Below, piece after piece: positions 10,801-64,000 of a stretch of 64,000 nucleotides of DNA; the stretch's first letter is position 1; each line of letters starts with the position of its first letter. The position numbers and the translations under genes were made by a program. This stretch comes from Siphonodentalium dalli (lineage: Eukaryota; Mollusca; Scaphopoda; Gadilida; Siphonodentaliidae), in contig CP136067.1 of assembly GCA_032622095.1 (NCBI GenBank), positions 80,192,705 through 80,256,704 on the forward strand. The letters run 5' to 3'. A model generated the notes under the pieces. It made no database searches and was not told where the DNA came from. It saw nothing but the letters and a program-made list of their open reading frames with translations.

Positions 10801-13800
10801 GATGACTTTGTAACGTCAGTGAGATAACTCAGATTACGAAGGAGGCTCATTATTAATTTGTATGACATGAAATAAACAGTATTTAATCACAGTTTTAAAC
10901 AGGCTAATCATCCCGCTAATGTATGAGAATGGCACTGGGACACTGCCACTGTGCATGAAGTTCGTGAAAAGTAAGGAGTTTGGAACTTTGGAGTCAATGG
11001 AGTCTGATTCGAGTCATTGCAAACGAAAACTCTTCTGTGCATGTAATATAAATTCTTCAGTTTTGGAAGGTAAGGACTAAGGTCTGATACAGCTTTAAAA
11101 GAATGTGAAAGAATAATTTTTTCAGTATGGATTCATTGGAAAACAACCGAATATGCATGAGATCGATCACCTGATATTCAAATGTTTGTTTGCTCCAGAT
11201 ATCCTCAGACTTGTGTGTCTCAGAATTGTTGTACTTATCCTATTGAAGTCAGAAAACATCTCTGGAAAAATAGATCTTTGTTTAGGCCTAAAAAAAATAC
11301 CTTTGTTTCGCTAATGGACTGAAGAAAAATATAGGGTTGGTAGGAGGGTTAAACTTTTTCTTATTTTTCCTTTTTAACTCTAACAAAGTTTGAGCTATTG
11401 CCATGGGTTTGCATACATGCAGCAAAACATTTCCTTTGGCACACCCTATAGGCCGCATCCCTTATCCAATCTTCATCAAACTTTATATGTAGCTTCAAGG
11501 TGATCTATAGATGGAAGCTACCAAATTTTTCTGAAAAAATAATGCAGCTAGCAGCCATCTTGTATTTCAAATTTGTATCCATCGGCCCACCCTGCAGCCC
11601 GTATTTATGGCCAGATCATTTTCAGACACTATTGTAATCACCGGTAGATGGGAACTATCAAATGTTAATTATTTTCGATGAAAAATATGGCCGCTGGCAG
11701 CCATCTTGGATTTTACTCTTTGCATGACTAACTCATTTGGCTCACCCTACAGACCCATTCCTCACTGATCATCGCCAAACATCATATCGATATCGGATGA
11801 ACTCTAGATGGGAGCCTCCTATTTTGACTTAAATTTGTTGAAAAACATGGCTGCCAGCAGCCATCATGGAATTTACTCTTTGTATGACTAAATCCTTATG
11901 CACAACCTACATACACATTTCTCATCCGATCATCACAAAACTTCATATGGATCTTTGGGGTGACCTCTCTTTCCTTCTTTATCATTATATTCATTGCTCA
12001 GCAAAAAATTAGCTCCTTCCCAAGTTGAGCTATAATGTCATTGATACTTTCATTTTTTCTCAATATCTTCCTATTAATTCAACAAAATAGTGCCCACCCC
12101 AATGTTTAACGCACAAGCACCAACAAGCTGGTAAATACAGTGTATAAAACAAAACAATCAACTCTTTCACAAACCATTTTGTCTTCATTTGGAATAATCC
12201 AGTTCTAAGATGAAGTGGGAAAACTTAAGTCATATCTTACACATTATGTTTTATTAGACTGTTCAAGTTATAAATTGGTCTCACCTTATTCAATAATCAT
12301 ACATATTTCTCTATTTCTGGTTTGGTCTGCAAAAGAGTTTTTGAAGTCAAATATCATTCAAAGTACCTATTAATTCAAGGGACGATGGGCCAAATAGAAA
12401 TTTTCTTGAGTGAATTGCTGATAATTTAAGATCAGCTTCCATGCACAGGCAAGGTCAGGCATTTTAAAACCAATACGAAATCTCAAACTATTCTTGAGTG
12501 GCTTTATGGGTATAAAACATAATAACATAGAGTCACATTCACTGTTTTAAAATGGATAGGTCAATCAATTTTTGCCAAAGTTTGTTTTAATTAATTTTTA
12601 ATGAATAGTTGGTGACATTTTCATGATTTGAAGAAATTAATATCACTGAAAGGATTAAGATACTGTATATGATATCTTAACCCTTTCATGACTGGAGCTT
12701 CCTAAAATGTTTGCTAAAACCCTGTGCCAATGCATTCCCTTATACATAGGGAGCCTCTCATATATAAGAATACATCGCCCTAACAATATTTACCTTGACA
12801 GTGTAAGCCAGTGCATTCTCTTATGTGAGACTTGCATATGTATGAGAATGCACTGGCACAGAATCTTTAATGCTGCACCAACTCAGCTCCTGTCATGAAA
12901 AGATTAATTTGTTTCTATATTAATATATCTATTCTATTATTACAGGAAGTTCATGGAGTGAAGTATGCCAGCAGTGTTGCAGACATGATTCCATTGGGGC
13001 GGAGGAATCTTGGCAGTGAAGATGAGGATTCATCTAATGACCAAAACAAGTGAGTTACTGATGCATATATATGCTGAATACTCACTAATGAGTAGTTATT
13101 TAAATTTATTATGTGACTGACCCCCGGGGGAGAATTGGTTCGTAAAGTCAAGATCAAGGGTATGATGGGTTCGGACTAACCCAACCTGGATAACAGATTT
13201 CCCTTGTTGCCCCAACTACCAGTAGTTGTACAGGGTTCCATGGTTCATTTAACCACCACGTCAGCATTTGTCGGCATCCGGGTCTGCCACCTTGTCGTTA
13301 TCCAGGTCTGCCAACATGTCGACTTTTGTCATCAGTAATAAAAGTATATTGTTACTCTATTTGGCACCATATTTGAGCATTTTTAACAAATCAAAGACCA
13401 ACAGTATTAGTATCTATGGAAAGCTGAAATCATAGCTATCTTTCAAATTATTTGGTATATTTGATTGATGTTATGCAGATTTTCACAATGAAACCTTTCA
13501 AGATAGCTTTTATTTTCAACAACAAAAATATTGCCGAAGCCATCTTCGCATTTTCGGCTGTTGTCAGAGACACTTTCTTGTTAACCATGTGTTCTACAAG
13601 GTCGTGAGGGAAAGCTACATGGAATTGACTTGAAATTGGTTTTTATATTGAGAAATGTGTTATTTCAGTGATGGTGATTTGTTATTTCAAAAAAGTGCTT
13701 TATAGAGATATTTTGTCAGTCCTAAAATAATGTTCACAGCGAAGCTAGATCTAATCGTAACATTTGCATAACTGGGATATTTTCCATGTTGAGTTCTATC

Positions 13801-16800
13801 AGGCACATGATGATAAACAAAAATGTTTATAATCAAAAACTTTTATATTAACTAACAAAAGTAATTTCAGTCATTTATATCAAATATTTATTATGTGCTG
13901 GCTAATGTGCCCGACTTCGTCAAGGATATTTAGCGATTTCTTTGTGATCGCCTCTGTCTGGTCCAGAAACATGCCTATTTGAGCATATGTGTCAAGTTCA
14001 AGGACACAGTCGCATGAGAAATTGGACTGGCCCACATTGTTCCCGTGATCAAAGTAGCCCTACATACCAAATTTGAGTCGGATCGGTCGAGGTCCAGAAA
14101 CATGCCTTTATGAGGTTATATGAGCGAGGTCAAGGTCAAGGACACAGTCGCACTTGATATTGGACCCACTCATATTGTTCCAGGGAATAAAGTAGGTCTA
14201 CGTACCAAATTTGAGTCAGATCATTCGAGGTCCAGATACATGCCTATATGAGCGAGGTCAAGATCAAGGACATGGTCACACGTGAAATTGGACCCGCCCA
14301 TATTGTTCCTGGGATCAGAATAGGCCTACATACCAAATTTGAGTCAGATCAGTCAGTGGTCCAGAAACATGCCTATATGAGCGAGGTCAAGGACAGGGTC
14401 GCACGCGAAATTGGAACCACCCATATTGTTCCCGGTATCAAAGTAGGCCTACATACCAAATTTGAGTCGAGCATACATACATACATACAGACAGAAGTTC
14501 CAAAATATATAATAGACTAGCCGATGAGCCCGACGTTGTCCGGGCGACGTTGTCCGGGCTATTCAAAAACCAAATTTCAAGTCGATAGCTCCACCCTTTT
14601 CCGAGATCTGGTCTGCGCATGCGCGAAGCTGGCGTCGCACGGGCTCGGCGACCCGATAAACTTCGTATCCGGGGCAAGATACATTCACATACCAAATTTC
14701 AAGTCGATAGCTCCACCCGTTTCCGAGATATCATCTGCGCATGCGCGAAGCTGGCGTCGCACGGGCTCGGCGATCCGATAACATTCGTATCCGGGGCAAG
14801 ATACATTCACATAGCAAATTTCAAGTCGATAGCTCCACCCGTTTCCGAGATCTCGTCTGCGCATGCGCGAAGCTGGCGTCGCACGGGCTCGGCGACCCGA
14901 TAAAATTCGTATCCGGGGCAAGATACATTCACATAGCAAATTTCAAGTCGATAGCTAAACCCGTTTCCGAGATCTCGTCTGCGCATGCGCGAAGCGGGCG
15001 CCGCACGGGCTCGCCAATACGACAACGTCCACCGCCTGGTCAAACTACACACACGTACCAAGTTTCGTCCCGATCGGTCGAGAATCGTAGATTTGTATTA
15101 ATGACAGACAGACAGACAAACATACAGACAGAGGTCTTCAAAATATATATGAGACTAGCAGGTTAGCCCGCCACCGGCGCCCGGCTTGTCCGAAACATGA
15201 CATTTTTTTATATATTTTTTTTTTATTTTTAGCTCCACGCGTTTCAATAAGAAAAATTTGTACCCGGTAGCTCCACCCGTTTCCGAGATCTGGTCTGCGC
15301 ATGTGCGAAGCTGGCGTCGCACGGGCTCGGCGACCCGATAAAATTTGTACCCGGCGCAAGATACATTCACATAGCAAATTTCAAGTCGATAGCTCCACCC
15401 GTTTCCTAGATCTCGTCTGCGCATGCGCTGCACGGGCGTCGCACGGGCTCGGCGACCCGATAAAATTTGTACCCGCGCAAGATACATTCACATACCAAAT
15501 TTCAAGTCGATAGCTCCACCCGTTTCCGATATCTCGTCTGCGCATGCGCTGCACGGGCGTCGCACAGGCTCGCCAATACGACAGCGACGACCACCTGGTC
15601 AAACTACACTCACGTACCAAGTTTCGTCCCGATCGGTCGAGGTGTTGGTATCTGATGCAAAAGACGAAATTGTGAGTGTTGGTCAATAGTCCCCGCCGTG
15701 AACCTCATCGTCGCAAAGAGCGGACAGTCAATTAACCCCGTTGTGAACCTCAATCACCAACGCGACGTAAACATGTGTTGCGTTCTAAAAATAGGAAAGC
15801 ACTTTCTCTCTGCATAATTCTGCAGATGCTAATAACGTTGCTCCCCGTAGGTAGCAATATCGTTGTTGTTGATATTTACGGCTTGGGGGCTATTTTCTTA
15901 TTTAGCAAGTTTGAGCTCAATCGGTTCGAGTCTATAAAGGACACACTCATATATATGACACTTCCCGTGGGTAGCAAGTTTGAGCTCAATCGGCATTCCC
16001 TGGAATTTCCCGTAGATTGGCAGATTCCAGTAGCTTTATAACGGTATATCTGGGGAGAAATCTGATGCTATATTCGTGATTATCTGGGATGATTTCGGTA
16101 TATAACTATATACTGTAAAAACAAAGCACGCCATCCGTGCTCGCAGGGTTGGTCAGAAACAAATGTTTTTTAAATTTAATGTATGTTCCGTATATCTCTC
16201 TGCAGATGCAAATAACGTTGAATGGCAAACAGACGCTCTTTATAGAGATGCGTCAAAAACAAACGCTCATTAAATAATCACTTGATTAACCCACGCCGTG
16301 CCTTTGCGGTGATTTGAGATTGCAGAACGGGTGCTCTGAGCTTCTCTAAACCGCGACCACGGTCGTGTCGGTGGGATTTGACACTTACATAGGAAGTTTG
16401 AGCTCAATCTTTACACGCGTTTTGGATTCTATGAAGTACATACATACATATATACGAAGTCTCAAAATATATAGTATAGACTAGCAGGTTAGCCCGCCAC
16501 TGGCGGCGTTCGTCAGAAACATGACAATTTTTAATTTTTTAATTTAATTTTTTTTTCAATGAGTTAATATTAATTTTTTTTTTATAACATGAGTTAACCT
16601 CTTCGCTGCTATGACGTCCGTATCTATTACGGACGTAAAAGTGCACGCCGTGTGCTATATGGTCCGTAGGTACTACGGACTTACTTCAGCACACTAGAAG
16701 TAGGCCATTATACATAACTGGAACTCAGAGATTAGTGCATCGGAATAACTGTATCTCTACGTTTCAAACAGTGTATGATGTTCCACGATTGTGAACAATA

Positions 16801-19800
16801 ATAGCCTTTCAGCTGAGTCACTTTTATGGTTCTTTTGACATTCCTGCTATATTTTCCCATCGGAAAATGCCAATAACGTCAACAGCCCAGCACACGATGG
16901 CATAACGTCATTTAGCAGCGAAGAGGTTAATTGTGCATTTTTAATTTACTGGATTTTTAAATTTATTTTTTGGATTAATTTTTTAATTTAATTTTTGGTT
17001 TTTCAATATTTTACCCGATTAGACCTTATTTTACCCGATTAAGGTGAAGAAGACATAAGAATCACACAACACGCAGTACCCGTCCCTAAAAGAGGTATGA
17101 TTTAAGGTACATCGGGCGGAAAAACTGACCTGATGAAAAATTCCCCCGTTCCTAGAAACGACAGACATAAGAATCACACAACACGCATTTTTTGTTTTCA
17201 CACAACATGCAGTATCCGTCCCTAAAAGAGGTATGATTGAAAATTTCCCCCGTTCCTAGGAATGACAGACATAAGAATCACACAACACGTTAATTCTGCC
17301 ATTTTAATCAAGATAAATGCATTTCGCGTTTTGCGTCCGTAGTTTCGTACACATGGGTAACCGTTTAGCAACGCCGATGGCAATAAAGAGCGTTAGTCGG
17401 TTAACAACTCCAAATATGGTCAATATAAAGATCGTTGATGCCTTAACCCCCGAAGTGCCGTTTGCGGTGATTTTGATGATTGGGAGTGGAGAATGAGTGC
17501 TCAGAGCTTGTCCAAAATGCGACGTTGACCATCCCCGTGGGTTTTTACCCTTATATACGAAATTTGAGCTCGATCCGCGCAGCCGTTTTCGATTTTATAT
17601 AAGTACCCACACACATATATACACACATATATACGGAAGTCTCAAAATATATAGTAGACTAGCAGGTTAGCCTGCCACTGGCGGCATTCGTCTCATGGCT
17701 TTGTTAGAAAAAGCAATTGCAACAGGTTCCGAGACACTTGTGCTGCATTTGTACCAAATTTCGTCGAAATCAGCAAGTTTTACCCGATTTGACCTTGAAT
17801 TGACAATTTTGTAGGTCAAGGTCAGGTCGTGGTCGTGATTTGACCCGTCCAAAACACTCCCCGGACAAAAGTACAGAAATCCGCCAGTTTTACCCAATTT
17901 TGACCCGTCCAAAACACTCCCCAGACAAAAGTACAGAAATCCACCAGTTTTACCCAATTTGACCTTGAATTGACCAGTTTGAAGGTCAATGTCACATCGG
18001 GGTCACGATTTGACCCGTCCGTGACATTTTCGGGACAAATGTACCCATAGGTAGCAAGTTTGGGCTCAATCGGTTGACCCGTCCCGAGTTGACCATTTTG
18101 CACAGAACAGCTGAGCCCCAAAATTTATTAACACATGATTTCGCATTCAAATCGATTTATGTCGATAAAACTCTTATTTTTCAAAATTTCAAGCTGAGAC
18201 TTCGTGTGACTGCGTGTAATACTTATATATTCTTAAAATGACTCAGTCCAACACGTAATTATGTTTTAGATGGAAGAAATAAAAAAATTTTGATGCTAAA
18301 TTTTAATATAGGATTTCCCATTAAAATTGATTTATGTCGATAAAACTCTTATTTTTCAAAATTTTACGCTCAGACTTTGTGTGTATGTGTGTAATACTTA
18401 CATATTCTTAAAATGACAGAGTCCAGCATGTAATTATGTTTTTGATAAAAGAAATTAAATTTTTTCGATGCTAAATTTCGAGCGATATCGTTGCGTTGAA
18501 TTGTAAACAAACACTCTTTTATAGCTACGCGTCATATACAACGTCACTTGATTAACCACCGCAGCGCCGTTTTTTGTGACTGAGATTGGAGAACGGGTGC
18601 TCTGAGCTTCTCCAAAATGCGACATGGACGATCCCCGTGGGTTTTTACACTTATATACGAAATTTGAGCTCGATGGGTGCATCCGTTTTCGATTCTATAA
18701 AGTACACACATATATATATACGGAAGTCTCAAAATATATAGTATAGATTATTTAAAATTTATTTCATAGCAATACAAGGAACTTAGTAGAATCTTCCGGG
18801 GAAATAGCACATTTAGCAATTTCTGAACATGTGCGTTCGATCGAAGTTGGGCGCGAATTTCAATCTTTTAATTATCAATAATTTTTCAAGAGATATTTAT
18901 CATTTTAATCGAAAAAAATTTGCTTTCTCAGTATTAAAAGTTGAACATATACCCAACATTATATTTTGATTAGTTAATTTTAACGGTAATCACTTTTAAT
19001 TATTGCATCATCAAGACACCAGGGGTGGTATTCACCGGCTGGGTTTATAATATAGTCCAGGTAGTTTTACGAGGCGACTCTCAATGCGAAGCTATCGGTG
19101 GACATCGATGGGAAGACATCGCCGCGCGGTATAGGATTATCCAATCAAGGTGATTGGCGTCAATCATAGATTGACCACCGGTCACATAAACATGCTGCGC
19201 GTAACTGTCCACGTTTGGTTCATTTCAACAATGAGCAACTGAGGAAAAGGACGTGGGGAAAAATATACCACCGACGACAGACGAGCGTAAAACGTTTTTG
19301 GGCATTGTGGAGAGAAGAATCAAGATATTAGAGAACAAAGAAACCGGCACCATTCGGAAAAATGATACATGGAAAGAAATTTCTTTGGAAATGGCAGGGA
19401 AATTTCCAAACAGAACCAAAAGACAAACAAAATTCTTCTGAGACGTTATCTTCTTGGCTCTTCATATTCACACTGTGCTAATTAAAAAACCTCATTAATA
19501 TCATTGAAATTCATTCTGCAGATGTTTAAACTCCAGCATGAGTCTCCACACAATTATACCCAAAAATTATACCGCTATACATGCCGATTGTGGCCGGTGA
19601 GTGTTCACGAATTAGTCGTGAGACGGTGTCAATTGACAAGTGACAAATCTGATAGATTGGATCAATCACATCATCGACAATGTGTGTCGTTGGCGCTAAA
19701 GCAAAGATACCTTTGCGTTCAGCCACTACCAAATAAACTACCTGGTTTATAAAATAGTCTCGCTTGGTGAATACCACCCCTGCTGTTACTAAGGACTCTG

Positions 19801-49300: not shown

Positions 49301-52300
49301 TAATCTTACTCTTTGAAGAACTGTGTTTCCCTTATATTGGCACATGTGACTGATGACTTGTAGGATGTGGATTTGCAAGGCATCACACAGTTACATTTAT
49401 GGTCATTTCTGCCACCATAGTAGTGGACTGAAATACAGAGAAGGAACCATAGTATAGTCTCATATCTGTGTCCGCACATGGAATACACAGAACAATTAAA
49501 ACAAGAAAACCATAGTCAGAAATGTTAACACCCTCAAGATCATATTATTACGCATACAAAATATAAAATATACTGTTTTCATGAATGCACCACCTCAGAA
49601 TTCCGTTAAAACAACTACAGTAATGCCCTAAATAATCGACTCCTTAACCACAGCAGAATTATGGGTAATTTTTCAGGATTTAGTCGGAAATATGGCTTGT
49701 TGCCATTCATCGGGAAGCTCAGTAATTACTGTAATCCTTCAAATTATTACAACTACACTGAAGGTTTAACCACACCAGAAAGCCTTTCAATACAGACCAT
49801 AAATCTACTAATCGGATTATTAAACTACAACCCGATACTTTGTAATAGGATATTTAGTCTACATTCCAACTGAGACATACTTCATCACCAATGTTAGATG
49901 TTATATTATGCATTGTGTTCATGCAATACAATCTTTAAGAGTGGCCCAGCCATTGTTCACACCTAAATATTGAAAGCAATTAATGCGACCATAAAAGTTA
50001 CATACTGCAACAATAATACATCCGCGATGTTACATCCTGCAAAAAGTCTAACCAGTATGCAATATAGCGAGTATGTTATTAATAAAAGTTACCCCATAAC
50101 ACCTATGACATTAGACTCGTCCCTAGCTTATATGTGAAACACTACGACGCTATCGCTCTGTGACGTGCCCTCCCATAATATAATAACGACGTCGAAAGCA
50201 GCCACTGTTGATTGTACAAAGTATTTAGTCATACACAGTGTAAAATCCAAGATTGCTGTGGTGGCCATGTTTTCCAACGAAATTTGTAAAAAATTGATGG
50301 CTCCCACTAGGCTGGTGGTCACCCAAAAGGTCCATATGTGGTTTGGTGATAATCGGATCAGGGATGTGGTCTATAGTGTTGTGTCAAAGGATTTAGTCAT
50401 GTAAAGAGTAAAATCCAAGATGGTTGCCGGTGGCCATGTTTTTAACAATTTTCAGAAACAATCTATGGCCCGGCTCCCATCTAGAGGTAATCCCGAAGAT
50501 CCATATAAAGTTTGGTGACAAACGGATGAGGGAGGTTGCCTGTCATCAGACAAATGGTACGGCGTGTATAGCCCGTGCTAATGGTTTGAATTGTGAAATC
50601 CAAGATGGTGGCCACGTTTTTTCATCCCGAATGACCCCAGCCAAAAGGAATCATTTCCCTGGTACATCATAGTGACAAATTTCATAATGATCCGAGAAAA
50701 GGTACAAGATGTGGGCCGTGCTAATGAAAATTGGACACACGCACATACAAGTTGAACTAAAAACAGTATACAGGATGCCGTTGTCACATTCAATTGTGAC
50801 CCCCCCCCCCCCCCCCCCAAAATTCTTCAAGGTTTAATCACGTTGGTGTAAACATTATTTATTTAGTATCCCAGATTTATACAACAATTTACAAAATGAT
50901 GTTAATATATATATATATGTAAGTATGATAAGTCTGAGAGAGAAGAGGATTTGACATCAAGCGCCAGGCGCTTATATGGAGCCATCTCCTCATCACGTTG
51001 ACTAAGACGAGAATAATGTACATGGTACTGTTCTTCAGAGCCATAATAGTGTGGTCGTCGGAGGGTTAGACCCAGAAGAAATTGGTAAAGAAGTGGTTTT
51101 GGTGTCATTCGACGCGGGAGAATCTCGTGTATAACATATCCAAAATCCGCTTTGGGCAAAATTCAGGATCCAAGATGGCGTCCAACATGGCTGCCGTTAG
51201 TCAAAAGATACTCTGACTGAGATTAATTCGATAATAGTGAGAACAAATGTTGTCCTATGTATACAAATGTATACATTTTTGCAAAGGTAAAATATTGTGC
51301 CACCTGTTTATGGCAAAAATGGAACCCCTTGTCCCAGATGGCGGCCTAAACTCGAACATTTGAAGTTTTTGCCTAATATCATAAAGATCAATTCCTGTTG
51401 TTTGATAATGGTTCAGACTGGCGACTTTGATTAGGCTTATTCATGTTAATTCAGCATTGGAGCAATGAAAGATACCATAAATGGGGTCCCATACTCATCT
51501 ACACCCTCAAAAATTCGATTTTACAGAACGCGGTATAAAATTCCACAAAACTCGCCATTGTGATTACAGTCATATATCAACAAGAAATGGACAGAACTGT
51601 ACAATGTAAGTTGGGCATACCAATATCTACGAATACTCCAATTCAATGAAACCATAATTGGCGCTTTGTCTCAAAATGGCGGTCAAAATATGGAAAATGG
51701 CGGATATTGATCACTGTGTCATTCAATCCATTATAAGTAGTGGTTGATGAATAAAAGTGACTAAATAAATGCGAATGTATACCTCATTATGATGCCATTA
51801 TGCTAGCTCTATGTAAAAACTTAAATATCAGTACCAAAAATGGCCACCCGATGTGAAAAATACTATTTTCTATCACTTCTGTTTATCACTTGTTGCTCTC
51901 TGAACTGGGAAACAATGGGTATATTCTTTCAATGATCGTGCCAACTGATCATTACAGCAATGACATGTATAATCGATTAAATCATAGTTTACTCCGGTCC
52001 TTCACTAATAAGTTATAACGAATATGCGGTATGAAATTTAACCAAAATCGACTTTGGGGTTCTGGTCACATTTGATATTTAGGGATGAGCAGATCTGGTC
52101 TACAAAATAATTGATCGTTTCTTTTGTTTGTGAACATTCCATCTCAAATAGACCAAACGAAACAATAAATTTGATCTAATATGGCTTCCAAAACGAAAAT
52201 GGTAGACTCTGCCCAGCTTATCATATAATGGAAGTTGTGAGTGGTGGATGCAGTTGATAGTTGGCTAATATACAAGTATGTGGCTCATATACATCAACAC

Positions 52301-55300: not shown

Positions 55301-58300
55301 AGCCATGACTACCAGGATTATAGATTTCAGTGAAAATCGTAACACTAAATCTAACCGTTAGCCCAACCTCCACCATGCCTCCGCCAACTCAGAGAGGACA
55401 TTGTATACACACCAGTCCTTCGATTAGTATTTCATCTCATATATATTTTGAAGACCTCTGTCTGTTTGTTTGTATGTTTGTCTGTATGTTTGTATGTTTG
55501 TCATTTATACAAATCTACAATTCTCGACCGATCGGGACGAAACTTGGTACGTGTGTGTAGTTTGACCAGGCGGTCGACGTTGTCGTATTGGCGAGCCCGT
55601 GCGGCGCCCGCTTCGCGCATGCGCAGACGAGATCTCGGAAACGGGTGGAGCTATCGACTTGAAATTTGCTATGTGAATGTATCTTGCCCCGGATACGAAT
55701 TTTATCGGATCGCCGAGCCCGTGCGACGCCAGCTTCGCGCATGCGCAGACGAGATCTCGGAAACGGGTGGAGCTATCGACTTGAAATTTGGCATGTGAAT
55801 GTATCTTGCCCCGGATACGAATTTTATCGGGTCGCCGAGCCCGTGCGACACCAGCTTCGCGCATGCGCAGACGAGATCTCGGAAACGGGTGGAGCTATCG
55901 ACTTGAAATTTGGTACGTGAATGTATCTTGCCCTGGATACGAATTTTATCGGGTCGCCGAGCCCGTGCGACGCCAGCTTCGCGCATGCGCAGACGAGATC
56001 TCGGAAACGGGTGGAGATATCGACTTGAAATTTGGTATGTGAATGTATCTTGCCCCGGATACAAATTTTATCGGCTTGAAATTTGGTTTTTGAATAGCCC
56101 GGACAACGTCGGGCTCATCGGCTAGTATAATATATTCTCAAACCACAGGCATGGTGTATGCATAGAGACAAAATGCGCCAATATGCCCCCTTGCAATTTA
56201 GTTATTATATTCACACAGATATATGTTGCGTTTTTATATACTAAGTACTGCCAAGGATTTTAATCCTAATATTTCGCATTGATATTGATATATTCAGATA
56301 AAGTACTCCGAAACACATCTTACCTGGATGAAGGAAATGTCTGCACCCTCCGCACTCTATGACGGTGTAGTTCATGAAACATTCGCTCTCGCACGCCTCA
56401 CGGGAGTACTCACTGAACCGAATAAGTGGGTTTCGGAATTCACCCTCAGACATATCGGCACATGCACTGTCCCCGAATGCTAGATAAGGAGGTCCAAGCC
56501 CGGCTCGCTGGAAATAAATAAATAAACAAATATATATATATATATTTGAGAATTTGAGAGCAGAACAAAAACATATATACAAAAAAGTCAAACACATCAT
56601 GTGATGAAAATCAGAGAAAACATATACACATAAAAATAGATTGACGAGAATGCTGGATTAAAGATGGTCTATCTATTTGTAAACACGTTTTATATAGATT
56701 ACTGGGTATAACATAGCATATATGAGTCGAATACACTTTTCCGGAAACGCTATACTATCAATTAATATCGATTTTATATCAATATTTTCTTTTATTCCAC
56801 ACCCATTGGATTGACGTGAGTCACATGTATTCAACGGAATCCCAGCCATTGAATACATATTAGTGTATACCTCTAGTGGAATACAAGCCGGAACTATTCT
56901 TGTTGACGTTGTCGCCAAGAAAGATGCCGTACATTACGTCGAATATCCGCTTCCGGTGATCCCCCCATAATTACTGGTTATTTGTCAGACTTAAATCACA
57001 ATATAGGTAGCTATAGTAGCAATGAAGGTGCTATTCATGGATTGAACTTATCTGACTGAACGGTGTAGAATAAATACAGAACACAACTTGCATCATAATC
57101 TCAAATCTTTTATCGAACTCGTTGCGGACGGCGCAAAGTTATATTTCGCTCTCGCTACGCTCTCGCGAAATATATCCTTGCGCCATCCGCAACTCATTCG
57201 ATAAAAGAGTCTCGATTAAGATGCGCGTTGTGTTCTGTCTATTTATTCCACACCCATTGACGTGAGTCACATGTATTCAACGGAATCCCAGCCATTGAAT
57301 ACATATTAGTGTATACCTCTAGTGGAATACAAGCCGGAACTATTCTTGTTGACGTTGTCGCCAAGAAAGATGACGTACATTACGTCGATCATCCGCTTCC
57401 GGTGATTCCCCCCATAATTACTGGTTATTTGTCAGACTTAAATCACAATATAGGTAGCCTATAGTAGCAATGAAGGTGCTATTCATGGATTGAACTTATC
57501 TGACTGAACGGTGTAGAATAAATACAGAACACAACTTGCATCATAATCTCAAATCTGTTATCGAACTCGTTGCGGACGGCGCAAAGTTATATTTCGCTCG
57601 AGCTACGCTCTCGCGAAATATATCCTTGCGCCATCCGCAACTCATTCGATAAAAGGTCTCGATTAAGATGCGCGTTGTGTTCTGTCTATTTATTCCACAC
57701 CCATTGACGTGAGTCACATGTATTCAACGGAATCCCAGCCATTGAATACATATTAGTGTATACCTCTAGTGGAATACAAGCCGGAACTATTCTTGTTGAC
57801 GTTGTCGCCAAGAAAGATGACGTACATTACGTCGATCATCCGCTTCCGGTGATCCCCCCATAATTACTGGTTATTTGTCAGACTTAAATCACAATATAGG
57901 TAGCTATAGTAGCAATGAAGGTGCTATTCATGGATTGAACTTATCTGACTGAACGGTGTAGAATAAATACAGAACACAACTTGCATCATAATCTCAAATC
58001 TTTTATCGAACTCGTTGCGGACGGCGCAAAGTTATATTTCGCTCTCGCGAAATATATCCTTGCGCCATCCGCAACTCATTCGATAAAAGAGTCTCGATTA
58101 AGATGCGCGTTGTGTTCTGTCTATATATATACTACTATAATCAAGTGGGACATGTTTTCGTTACTATTTTTATAATTGTTAGATATTATCCCGTATGGTA
58201 CGCTCCGAACGAACGCGAGCCGTAAAATGTCCCAAATTGATTGTATGTGTATTATACCAGAAAATATTAACTGGTAGAAGGGTTTCCAGACAGGTGTTTT

Positions 58301-61300: not shown

Positions 61301-63995
61301 TCAGACGCTCCTAAATTACTATTTCTTTGGCTTCGGGGGTAAACAATATTTGATTCGAGTCGAGGAACCCACCCATCACAGCTCAGAGTGGTCAGATATC
61401 GATTTTTGAAGTTTATTATTTCTCGAGATGCGTAATAATATGTGGCCCAGAAACATGTGGTCAAACGGAGGATCTCGGACAAAATTGCGGGTGAAGATGG
61501 ATAACTCTAAAATCAAGTGGTAATACGGTCAACTTTCGTGATACAAAGTGATAATACGACCATATTTTGTTGAACAAAATGTTGATAAATAACAAGTTTT
61601 GGGAAATTTGATACCAATAGTTGACAGCGGTTAGCATTATTTTGTTGCAATAAATATCTCTAGATTCTGATAACTATAAAGCGTACTTTGAAGAAATATT
61701 GTTGCCGTTGTATCTTGGTGGTATGGGGACCGTCTGTTCGGATTGAGTACCTTTAATATTCTCGAATATGGAATAATCAACGGTTGCTTCCCCGACCCCT
61801 ATTGTTGGAGTTTAGGCCTGGTCCAGATGTGTAAACACCTGTACTTACCACCGTCTTGTCGACCTTGATGTCCGCATAACAGTTGGAGTTGACGATGAAT
61901 CCTTGGGCGGCTGGTAGAGGTGTTGTCGACGGATCATGTAGAACGACCTGTAAATTAATATGCATGTCAGCTCAACTTTCAACTTGTTAAGAATCAAATA
62001 TGTATTAATATGATAGAGTAGAGTGGGGGTGGTCACGACTGAGACGAAATATTTTCTTATATATACACAATTATAGATCATAATATTATAGGCCTACTTT
62101 GATTATCAGAGCGTTGATCCGGCGTCATGCACTCCTGTTCTACACATGCGTTACTACGTAACGCGTGTACATCAGGAATGTCTCTTTTGGGACAGGGTGA
62201 TGGGCCCTTTCCTTTGTGAAAATTTGCGCCATACATAGAGGCTTAACATTGAATTGGGAATGAGTGACTTAGAATGTAATAACATGTGAAAATCACTGTA
62301 ATCAAACAATTCAATGAATTTCTAAGTAAAGGTACTTTATCGGGCCCTGTAGTTGTCTCAACAAAAACAAAAACAAAACAAAAAACAAAAATCCCTGCAC
62401 ATATAAAAACTTATTATTGGCGAGACCTGGTTTAAGTGATTTTGAGCAGAAGAATACACCAAAGTTTACTGCAATGCTTAAGTAAAAACTAGAACATTGC
62501 AAATTTATAAATCCTATAACGTTTGAACAATAATATCACTAAGACAAGTTATGACTAGAATAGTGCTCTTATATGTAAAAGTGGGAACATTTCGCGTTAT
62601 AAATGCAATTGTTCAATTAAAGGGGTACTGTGCGCCATTTTCAATAAATTTCCGGTGATAACAACGATCTATTATCGATACTATATAGAAACATAAGTAA
62701 TTTGAGTCGAAGATGTATTCTGTAAACGCTCAGGTTAATAGGCTATCTTAAAATTTAATAATTTAAAAGTTAATAATTTAATATAAATTGAATTTATGGC
62801 TGGAGCCATAAAATGGCGTAAATTAAAATACGAATTTCCATGTACAAAACGTAATCAAATTATAATTGAGGGATATTGGATTAGTAAACCCACGGTCGTT
62901 TGAAACATTATGCTTATACGGGGAGAAAACTCAAGCCACTCATTGACTATAGTGACGATACAATAACTCAAATGAGTATATGGGACTACTATGCATATCA
63001 TATAATTTTTATTTGATTCATTGGTTGAAAACTGTACAAAATTACTCGATAACGACAATTTGTATTTTTGCATTCCGGTAAATTTGCCATCCGTAACACT
63101 ACTTCGTACTCAACAGACTTTCAAAGAATGGAAAAGTTGTTACCCTATTCTCCGACTCGGGGATTATAGAAACCAACAACAACATCTTGGGTACAGTACC
63201 CCTTTAAAGTGAGTTGCGGATCAAATTTTCCAAAAGTTTCGGTATTTGGAAACTCGAATATTGACAATTCTATCCCTCTAAGAAAATATACAACTTCTTT
63301 ATTGGTATATTGATATTTTGAAAATACCACGACAGTATAAGCATACTTTTCCAATACGCCTTGTCACTTTGTCGCGGCCATATTGGATCCACCCAGTCCC
63401 GCTTGGTTTTTTAATGCTACATGTCAAAGTTCTGGAGTAGCATTCCATATATGAAGGTTTTGAATATTCATGAATTCCATTGACTAGTGACACAGCTACT
63501 CCAGAAATTTTACCTGTGGCACTAAAAAAACGGAACGGACAGGATAAATTCAATGTGGCCCGACTGAGCGACAAGGCGTATATCGATACGTACTCTGAGT
63601 CCATCGAATTGGTAGACCCTGTACATAATGTCATTTTTGTCTAACTGCAGAAACAAATCGAAGCCTCTCATAGCATTGGACACCATCCTGTTTTCGTCTC
63701 CAGTAGAGTTCTCAATGCTTGAGGGGTTAATTGTGTAGCAGAGTCCCATTTCCGTGATCACTGGGTGAATGAATTGGCCGCAATCCTTCCAGAAGTGTTC
63801 ACCATAAGAACATGGAATTGGTTGTAGTTGCGGTTGTGTTAAGTTATTAACCCACGCCTGAACTTCACTGCCGTCCACTGTGCTCGGATCTAGCGGTATA
63901 TCACTCAACGGCCCGTATCGATGGTTCACTGCATCCCTTCCGAAACTGTTATATATGAATGGGTGACCCGTAATCTGTCCCAGGAACCTTTGTGC
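46213..63995 (-). CDS. DEG/ENaC/ASIC-family sodium channel, C-terminal two thirds
   Basis: Seven minus-strand exons with GT-AG borders and fully compatible phases: 63594-63995, 61849-61947, 56324-56507, 55223-55279, 49310-49427, 47481-47590 and 46213-46340. They give about 365 residues. Order of hallmarks: an extracellular start with MGLCYTIN (family G.CY.FN motif), GLR|VVLHDP (finger/palm HDP motif), GLGPPY, the Cys-rich YSREACESECFMNYTVIECG region, CNCVMPCKSTSYKSS, a pre-TM2 strand (DLIRLHVHFESPIVNE), then LLGSLGGQISLFLGFSLISI and IIEMMEFIFIIVTN. The last part is TM2 with the Gly-Phe-Ser selectivity filter and a short tail NCNLLRRKGTSV. The family forms trimeric, amiloride-sensitive Na+ channels in the plasma membrane, gated by ligands, acid or force; which one applies here cannot be told. 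TM1 and the N terminus lie beyond the window edge. CGGC replaces the commoner C-x-C. Confidence 0.93.
46683..46847. mobile_element. TTAA MITE, family B2 short copy
   Basis: TTAA at 46679-46682 and 46848-46851. Only one hairpin is left, so this looks like a deletion derivative. It lies in the last intron of the channel gene. A further half copy follows at about 46870-46995. Confidence 0.75.
47481..47590 (-). CDS. DEG/ENaC channel exon (pre-TM2)
   Basis: Acceptor CAG at 47593-47591, donor GTAAGT from 47480. Translates to TYSESSFDLIRLHVHFESPI and VNEIHQIPVYTLESLLG, matching the beta strand and 'Y..E.LL' region just before TM2. Confidence 0.9.
48280..48760. mobile_element. TIR element with TGGGCAGCCATTTGGTC ends
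   Basis: Inverted ends of about 23 bp (ATGGGCAGCCATTTGGTCAG and ..CCGACCAAACGGCTGCCCAT, two mismatches) enclose AT-rich sequence with repeated TATTAGAAT/TATTAAAATG motifs. No clear target duplication. It lies in a channel-gene intron. Confidence 0.6.
49310..49427 (-). CDS. DEG/ENaC channel exon (C-x-C..PC motif)
   Basis: Acceptor TTTCAG ends at 49428, donor GTAAGA from 49309. Encodes HYYGGRNDHKCNCVMPCKST followed by SYKSSVTCANIRETQFFK. The CNC..PC..T.Y pattern is a signature of the family's extracellular domain. Confidence 0.92.
49618..49731. mobile_element. MITE family A, internally deleted copy
   Basis: A full left end (CAGTAATGCCCTAAATAATC) runs to the centre CGGGAAGCTC, then directly to a right tip TTACTG. 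TA on both sides. Most of the right arm is missing. Confidence 0.65.
50190..50710. repeat. Tandem GCCATCTTGGA-type repeat, third locus (reverse)
   Basis: At least three diverged units with AAATCCAAGAT, GGTGGCCATGTTTT and GGTCCATATGTGGTTTGGTG or variants; the inverse of 11430-11960 and 27760-28490. Confidence 0.6.
50800..50818. repeat. Poly-C run of 19
   Basis: A homopolymer; exact length is likely to vary or to be misread. Confidence 0.9.
51045..55014. repeat. Large inverted repeat with about 2.6 kb centre
   Basis: The left arm 51045-51707 and right arm 54311-55014 are diverged reverse complements. Examples: ATAGTGTGGTCGTCGG against its inverse at the right edge, CGGGAGAATCTCGTGTATAA against TTATACACGAGATTCTCCCG-like sequence, and GGAAAATGGCGGATA against TATCTGCCATTTTCC. 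On the right, about 150 bases of the outer end are also repeated directly at 54151-54305, offset 695 from 54846. A shorter inverted match (GCATCAGTGCTATAATGT) links 52354 and 53042. No coding frame; resembles a foldback-type element or inverted satellite units. Confidence 0.7.
55223..55279 (-). CDS. DEG/ENaC channel micro-exon
   Basis: 57 bp between TTTTTCAG (ending at 55280) and GTGAGT (from 55222). Completes a Gly codon, then PEPVCPLPKLVKCFREAE. It adds two cysteines of the extracellular Cys-rich region. Phase matches both neighbours. Confidence 0.88.
55435..56125 (+). mobile_element. Helitron with four 122-bp repeats
   Basis: The 5' end TCTCATATATATTTTGAAGA follows host A. The 3' end has hairpin AGCCCGGACAACGTCGGGCT, then CATCGGCTAG, followed by host T: the expected A^T insertion. 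The interior has units of exactly 122 bp (GCGCATGCGCAGACGAGATC at 55615, 55737, 55859 and 55981). It is the same element as Helitron B at 14517-15154, here on the opposite strand and inside the channel gene. No Rep/helicase frame. Confidence 0.8.
56324..56507 (-). CDS. DEG/ENaC channel exon (Cys-rich domain)
   Basis: Acceptor TTTCCAG ends at 56508, donor GTAAGA from 56323. Encodes RAGLGPPYLAFGDSACADMS, EGEFRNPLIRF, then SEYSREACESECFMNYTVIE and CGGCRHFLHP. The Y-S-x3-C-x3-C and 'C.C....P' motifs are diagnostic. Confidence 0.93.
56791..58127. repeat. Three near-identical ~449-bp tandem units
   Basis: Units start with TTTATTCCACACCCATTG at 56791, 57242 and 57689 (periods 451 and 447) and are nearly identical. 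Each contains an inverted repeat around TATTTCGCTCTCGC...GCGAAATA with CTCGTTGCGGACGGCGCAA against TTGCGCCATCCGCAACTC, able to form a stem of about 40 bp. The third unit lacks part of the stem loop. Located in a channel-gene intron. Confidence 0.9.
58186..59250. repeat. Diverged direct repeat, about 880 bp apart
   Basis: GTACGCTCCGAACGAACGCG...GTAAAATGTCCCAAA at 58197 and GCTGCGCTCCAAACGAACGC...GTAAAATGTCCCAAA at 59080 start related segments of about 150 bases that also share TATTATACCAGAA and CAGGAAACTATA. Confidence 0.6.
58758..59566. mobile_element. Possible TIR element with TATGGGCGAC ends
   Basis: Short inverted ends TATGGGCGAC/GTCGCCCATA. The right end (TATGGGCGACCATTTGTTCT on the minus strand) resembles the ends of 48280-48760. 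It contains three roughly 100-bp repeats near 59290-59480 (GACTTATTGACTGTAATTCG). Confidence 0.35.
59570..60890. other. Channel-gene intron without recognised exon
   Basis: Phases of the flanking exons (61849-61947 and 56324-56507) join directly, so no exon is required here. Minus-strand frames at 59632-59926 show no family motif. A repeat fragment (CACCCTTGGGTTGGAATTTT) lies at about 60172. Confidence 0.45.
60900..61016. repeat. Minisatellite of about 22 bp built on CGTGGCCACG
   Basis: Repeated ATTCTCGTGGCCACGACT units, some with TATATT and some with TCACA between them. The core CGTGGCCACG is self-complementary. Confidence 0.75.
61849..61947 (-). CDS. DEG/ENaC channel exon (HDP motif)
   Basis: 99 bp, phase 0 at both ends: acceptor TTACAG ends at 61948, donor GTAAGT from 61848. 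Encodes VVLHDPSTTPLPAAQGFIVN followed by SNCYADIKVDKTV. 'GLR|VVLHDP' is the usual family context. Confidence 0.92.
62621..63203. mobile_element. TTAA-flanked MITE (AGGGGTACTGT ends)
   Basis: Ends AGGGGTACTGT and ACAGTACCCCT between TTAA at 62617-62620 and 63204-63207. 583 bp, non-coding, in a channel-gene intron. A third terminus type sharing the TTAA target with families B1/B2 and 16598-16927. Confidence 0.78.
63594..63995 (-). CDS. DEG/ENaC channel exon, first in window
   Basis: Donor GTACGT from 63593. The frame is open to the window edge; TGCAG at 64000-63996 may be the acceptor (phase 0), otherwise the exon continues outside. Encodes RFLGQITGHPFIYNSFGRDA, a linker, then YGEHFWKDCGQFIHPVITEM and GLCYTINPSS, the conserved post-TM1 G.CY.FN motif, and ends YQFDGLR. 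Confidence 0.85.
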
Positions 63996-64000
63996 CTGCA

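Follow-up and report, generated by a model that had tools for sequence, protein, structure and literature searches.

The window analyzed here is a 64,000-nucleotide stretch of contig CP136067.1 from the scaphopod mollusk Siphonodentalium dalli (GenBank assembly GCA_032622095.1, forward-strand positions 80,192,705 to 80,256,704). It contains five Helitrons with mostly unlike interiors, joined head to tail on the minus strand to form a single block at window positions 13898 to 18747. The junctions between the units are exact, an A borders the outer 5' edge of the block, and one of the units is also present elsewhere in the window as a solo copy flanked by A and T. The five appear to be non-autonomous Helitrons from two or three families. 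They probably arrived serially, each newcomer landing at the A^T at the 5' edge of the element already in residence.

Layout of the array and its junctions

From 5' to 3' on the minus strand, the units of the array follow one another in the order 5, 4, 3, 2, 1 (Table 1). At all four internal junctions (17658/17659, 16480/16481, 15154/15155, and 14516/14517), the CTAG of one unit directly abuts the TC of the next with zero spacer, exactly at the bases given in the original prediction. The outer 5' edge of the array (18747/18748) reads A/TC, with the flanking A that a canonical Helitron would have. At the opposite end of the array, unit 1 finishes in CCAG followed by C instead of the expected CTAG followed by T; this border is supported by 14 of 18 bases and is the weakest of the ten unit ends.

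Both strands of the window were scanned for further occurrences of the ends. With the last 18 bases of unit 2, there were two exact matches, unit 2 and its solo copy. The next-best sites are three at 4 mismatches, corresponding to the ends of units 1, 3, and 4, followed by three at 5 mismatches, of which one is the unit 5 end and two are unrelated. An 18-base 5' motif is exact in units 3, 4, and 5 and has 2 mismatches in unit 1; elsewhere in the window, with up to 4 mismatches allowed, it matches one unrelated site, at 4. A separate variant of this motif is carried by unit 2 and the solo copy and occurs nowhere else in the window.

Table 1. Units of the Helitron array, the element nested in unit 4, and the solo copy of unit 2
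Feature	Position in window	Strand	Length (bp)	Description
Unit 5	17659-18747	-	1089	5'-most unit; A/TC 5' edge, CTAG 3' end; 60-bp and 175-bp tandem repeats
Unit 4	16481-17658	-	1178	TC...CTAG
piggyBac-like miniature inverted-repeat transposable element (MITE), nested in unit 4	16594-16930		337	TTAA at both borders; 14-base inverted ends
Unit 3	15155-16480	-	1326	TC...CTAG; 121-bp repeat; chimera
Unit 2	14517-15154	-	638	TC...CTAG; 122-bp repeats
Unit 1	13898-14516	-	619	TC...CCAG (decayed 3' end); 128-bp repeats
Solo copy of unit 2	55435-56125	+	691	Flanked by A and T

A solo copy of unit 2

The solo copy lies 40 kb from the array and reads A/TC...CTAG/T; like unit 2, it starts with TCTCATATATATTTTG and ends with GGCTAG. 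An end-to-end alignment of the two pairs 624 bases, of which 602 are identical, and has 81 gap positions in three blocks. Relative to the solo copy, unit 2 is without 16 and 51 bases, and it carries 14 additional bases at the 3' stem. The homology ends at both element ends, and the DNA that flanks them is unrelated. Since the solo copy carries the same ends, both ends of unit 2 are fixed independently of the array, and since it exists alone in the form A/TC...CTAG/T, unit 2 is an independent element.

A search of the remainder of the 64-kb window at an E value of 1e-3 found no segment belonging to unit 1, 3, 4, or 5. The check proposed for the array, whether its units ever occur alone with the same ends, is thus answered in the affirmative for unit 2, one of the five, and in the negative for the other four in this window. 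Beyond the window, all eight exact-pattern scans of viral contigs and both scans of bacterial or archaeal genome contigs returned zero copies; these results carry little weight, given that exact matches were required and that the window is animal-like. A search for distant similarity to unit 5 among phage records gave no match, which likewise carries little weight for an animal-like window.

Features of the Helitron class

All five units and the solo copy begin with TC. The CTRR 3' end takes the form CTAG in four of the five units and in the solo copy, and CCAG in unit 1. Insertion between A and T without target duplication fits the flanks of the solo copy; the flanks of the array are A on the 5' side but C on the 3' side. 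Helentrons and HINEs, for which insertion at TT and runs of T at the borders serve as the criterion (PMC4067079), were considered and are ruled out by the A and T flanks of the solo copy together with the TC and CTAG ends.

Each unit had been credited with its own 3' hairpin. Stems can indeed be drawn, but none of the five units clearly beats its dinucleotide shuffles when the 3' end is folded as single-stranded DNA: from unit 5 to unit 1, the z-scores are -0.59, -0.40, +0.07, -0.34, and +0.16. The 3' end of the solo copy gives a z-score of -1.64, with 12 of 200 shuffles folding equally well. The 3' end of unit 4 folds as a CCGCC/GGCGG stem. In units 3 and 5, a different stem beside the end, GCRGG/CCTGC, is either favored or formed in addition, and the expected stem is absent from the best fold of unit 1. 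At the 3' ends of units 3, 4, and 5 (15155 to 15196, 16481 to 16522, and 17659 to 17700), the two stems overlap and are mutually exclusive, and either can be drawn immediately before the CTAG. A scan for a perfect stem followed by CTAGT found one site in the window, the unit 4 end, and also found matches in 5 of 20 first-order random sequences; such a scan is insufficient by itself to detect these ends.

Ten of the 28 reading frames listed in or across the array (at least 55 amino acids, G+C fraction above 0.38) were scanned, and none gave a RepHel or transposase match; two matches fell below the curated cutoffs.

Relationships among the units

The interiors of the units are mostly unlike, and the parts they have in common are their ends, together with a block of repeats in units 2 and 3. 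When the terminal 30 bases at the 3' end are compared, units 3, 4, and 5 fall into one group (25/30, 24/30, and 28/30), and unit 2 matches the solo copy at 29/30. Unit 1 matches these last two at 20/30 and 21/30. Among 3,000 random pairs of 30 bases, the best identity was 66% and the mean 47%, and on this scale the 3' end of unit 1 is barely beyond chance against unit 2 and the solo copy and within chance against units 3 to 5. The 5' ends are more alike than the 3' ends, with at least 23 matches over 30 to 33 alignment columns between different units.

The longer common parts follow the same lines. Between units 4 and 5, 214 bp at the 5' end are 81% identical and 34 bp at the 3' end are 94% identical; for units 3 and 4, the corresponding stretches are 214 bp (71%) and 76 bp (80%), respectively. 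The common part of units 3 and 5 is 269 bp (77%). Units 2 and 3 have in common a 389-bp stretch (90%) made of 122-bp repeats. What unit 1 shares with the others is limited to 41 to 45 bp (80 to 85%) of the 5' end, the part shared with unit 2 being about 41 bp (85%). The interior of unit 4 differs from the others partly because the piggyBac-like MITE has inserted there.

Helitrons are assigned to families by the identity of their ends, and it is this rule that stands behind the term "one family." By their ends, units 3, 4, and 5 would form one family and unit 2 a second; unit 1 would be a weaker, probably older relative. Unit 3 is a chimera, in which ends of the unit 4 and 5 type surround a repeat block of the unit 2 type. 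The original prediction described five different elements, with at least three interior types sharing termini of one family. The interiors are mostly unlike, but the family of termini extends to units 3, 4, and 5 and leaves units 1 and 2 outside it.

Origin of the array

A canonical Helitron inserts between A and T, so that the 5' edge of a resident element would consist of the host A and the element's own first T and would thereby offer a fresh A^T target. A newcomer entering at that edge would join its own CTAG to the TC of the resident, which is the junction seen four times in the array. If the array was built in this way, which we think is probably the case, the units would have arrived independently in the order 1 (oldest), 2, 3, 4, and 5 (youngest and still next to the host A), presumably mobilized by RepHel supplied by an autonomous element not seen here. 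Two routes had been proposed at the outset: repeated insertion at an existing Helitron end, which gives the best reading of the data, and rolling-circle read-through past the terminators, which fails to explain the unlike neighbors, though it may have moved part of the block.

Random landing is a poor fit. The window has 13,494 oriented AT sites, on which six landings would be expected to give 0.0011 abutting pairs, versus the 4 seen, a figure that treats all AT sites as equal and concerns an array that was picked for its shape; four successive hits call for a cause. Copies of one circle, or rolling-circle amplification of one element, are ruled out by the unlike interiors and by the 5' parts of units 3 to 5, which are only 71 to 81% identical.

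Unit 1 bears on the direction of growth. Its observed/expected CpG ratio is 0.71 and its TpG+CpA value is 1.26, compared to 0.84 and 1.21 for the window as a whole. The other four units have CpG ratios of 1.19 to 1.57 and TpG+CpA values of 0.86 to 1.13, and the CpG ratio of the solo copy is 1.62. The broken end of unit 1 and its background-like CpG depletion are consistent with its having been the first arrival and with growth of the array at the 5' edge. Of the 20 bases on the resident side of each 5' edge, 15 or 16 are A or T, and the 3' edges are rich in G+C. Insertions of Helraiser in human cells are reported to favor AT within AT-rich surroundings, chiefly on the 3' side (PMC4778049).

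We also put forward, tentatively, a more specific proposal, that Helitrons land preferentially at the 5' end of a resident one, given that this end is the transposase's own cleavage site (A/TC). Arrays would then grow one way, only at their 5' edge, families with like 5' ends could join them, and the present array would represent four such steps.

Several observations weigh against growth by insertion at the 5' edge. The CpG ratio drops from unit 2 to unit 5 (1.57, 1.37, 1.30, and 1.19), the opposite of the expected gradient, which base content may explain; because the order of these four units is reversed, the age argument is one unit deep. Unit 1, for its part, may simply come from another family. 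The AT-richness at the 5' edges is equaled or exceeded at 16 to 28% of the AT sites in the window and is too mild to explain four hits. Only one of the five units has a solo copy in the window, and the evidence as a whole comes from this single 64-kb window. A further point comes from the maize r1 locus, where two unlike Helitrons are joined CTAG/TC and where consecutive insertion has been argued, with the 5'-edge A^T and the 3'-edge G^T as possible targets and the order left open. Some maize lines are reported to carry the 5'-side element only, and insertion at the 3' edge is the simpler explanation there (Du et al. 2008, PMC2267711).

The units might instead have been joined elsewhere, with part or all of the block arriving together after the transposase had started at the 5' end of unit 5 and bypassed the inner terminators. 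Such bypass of an end has been demonstrated for Helraiser (PMC4778049), and a joint arrival would accord with the A at the outer 5' flank, with the weak 3' stems in the array, and with the chimeric unit 3, which implies that units exchange parts. However, the first adjacency of unlike elements would be left unexplained, the outer 3' flank is C instead of T, and unit 1 appears to be older than the other units, all of which make this course of events unlikely.

We consider it rather unlikely that the array grew at the other edge, by newcomers entering at the G^T between the resident CTAG and the host T. The resulting junctions would be identical, and unit 5 would be the oldest and unit 1 the youngest. 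The maize lines that carry only the 5'-side element fit insertion of this kind (Du et al. 2008, PMC2267711), and the CpG order of units 2 to 5 favors it; yet the supposedly youngest unit is the only one with both a broken end and background-like CpG depletion. Moreover, G^T is a noncanonical target: 46 of 1,751 Helraiser insertions missed AT, and the chief alternatives were TT, AC, and AA (PMC4778049).

Circular Helitron intermediates could also have recombined with a similar resident 5' end. Helraiser is described as forming circles with exact end-to-end junctions, and the 5' ends in the array are similar, but neighboring units diverge from base 4 or 5 onward. The first difference is at base 5 for units 5 and 4, base 5 for units 4 and 3, base 4 for units 3 and 2, and base 4 for units 2 and 1, which disfavors recombination within the common 5' end because a crossover would be needed in the first 3 to 4 bases each time. 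In addition, unit 2 retains 30 of 30 bases of the solo copy 5' end, and a swapped 5' end was not seen. We regard integration of circles as very improbable. An assembly artifact, or chance borders drawn on one composite repeat, would suit the four units that are not found alone in the window but is likewise very improbable, since the solo copy of unit 2 has both of the same ends and the five best window-wide 3'-end matches are all element ends.

Comparison with known tandem Helitrons

The array is longer than the cases that we found in the literature, and both the arrangement and the route proposed here have already been published. Our search, which did not extend to the principal bat and plant papers, turned up no array of five unlike Helitrons, and we make no claim of priority. 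The closest parallel is the maize r1 pair, which likewise consists of unlike Helitrons joined head to tail at a CTAG/TC junction. As described, it has two units rather than five, its interiors carry gene fragments rather than noncoding tandem repeats, and alleles of it were tested, whereas the present array is known from one window sequence (Du et al. 2008, PMC2267711). The same pair is a direct counterexample to the expectation, stated when the array was first noted, that tandem Helitrons usually consist of copies of one element.

Tandem Helitrons with exact head-to-tail junctions have also been reported from the bat Myotis lucifugus (Pritham and Feschotte 2007; Thomas et al. 2014). Those arrays are described as tandem repeats that result from a bypassed termination signal; here, in contrast, the neighbors are unlike. 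Distantly related Helitrons are reported to be immediately adjacent at times in both bat and maize, and maize Helitrons are said to favor insertion near or inside other Helitrons (PMC3288121). Head-to-tail junctions and tandem arrays are also the subject of a joint citation of four papers, one of which is PMC3789558.

In Metarhizium acridum, three Helitrons are reported in tandem, and the same two explanations are given for them, either two insertions, each into the 5' end of a resident element, or replication of a circle by the rolling-circle mechanism; this trio differs from the present array in having three units and in consisting of Fusarium-related Helitrons with noncanonical ends (PMC5148889). 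Mothra, a non-autonomous rice Helitron, resembles the individual units in its TC...CTAG ends, its tandem-repeat interior, and its lack of a RepHel gene, and the available part of that report does not mention a head-to-tail array of elements (PMC4683698).

The apparently greater age of the 3'-most unit bears on the question that Du et al. left open, namely, whether the A^T of the 5' edge or the G^T of the 3' edge is the target. If growth at the 5' edge holds genome-wide, resident Helitrons would be targets for later ones, and this could be a route to chimeras like unit 3.

Host context and other features of the window

The array had been placed inside one intron, which was not confirmed. An exon-like stretch at 12947 to 13049 is bordered by AG and GT, the frame that contains it (12871 to 13050) has no Pfam match, and no downstream exon was identified.

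Three minus-strand frames match the amiloride-sensitive sodium channel family (ASC, PF00858): 49309 to 49515, below the curated cutoff, and 56244 to 56657 and 63525 to 63998, both above it. As this is a family of animals, the matches point to an animal genome. A search of solved structures with one ASC-matching frame returned no match at an E value of 0.01.

Other repeats are present in the window. The segment from 19020 to 19782 is bounded by perfect inverted ends of 17 bases (CAGGGGTGGTATTCACC) and includes a frame with a Myb/SANT-like match at 19235 to 19438 that is below the cutoff; it is possibly a DNA transposon. Between 25309 and 46954, a palindromic repeat of 80 bases with GCCAATGCATTCTCTTATATATGCGAG arms is matched 12 times and constitutes a local MITE-like family. 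A 447-bp tandem repeat occurs in three copies, with 96% matches, at 56810 to 58128.

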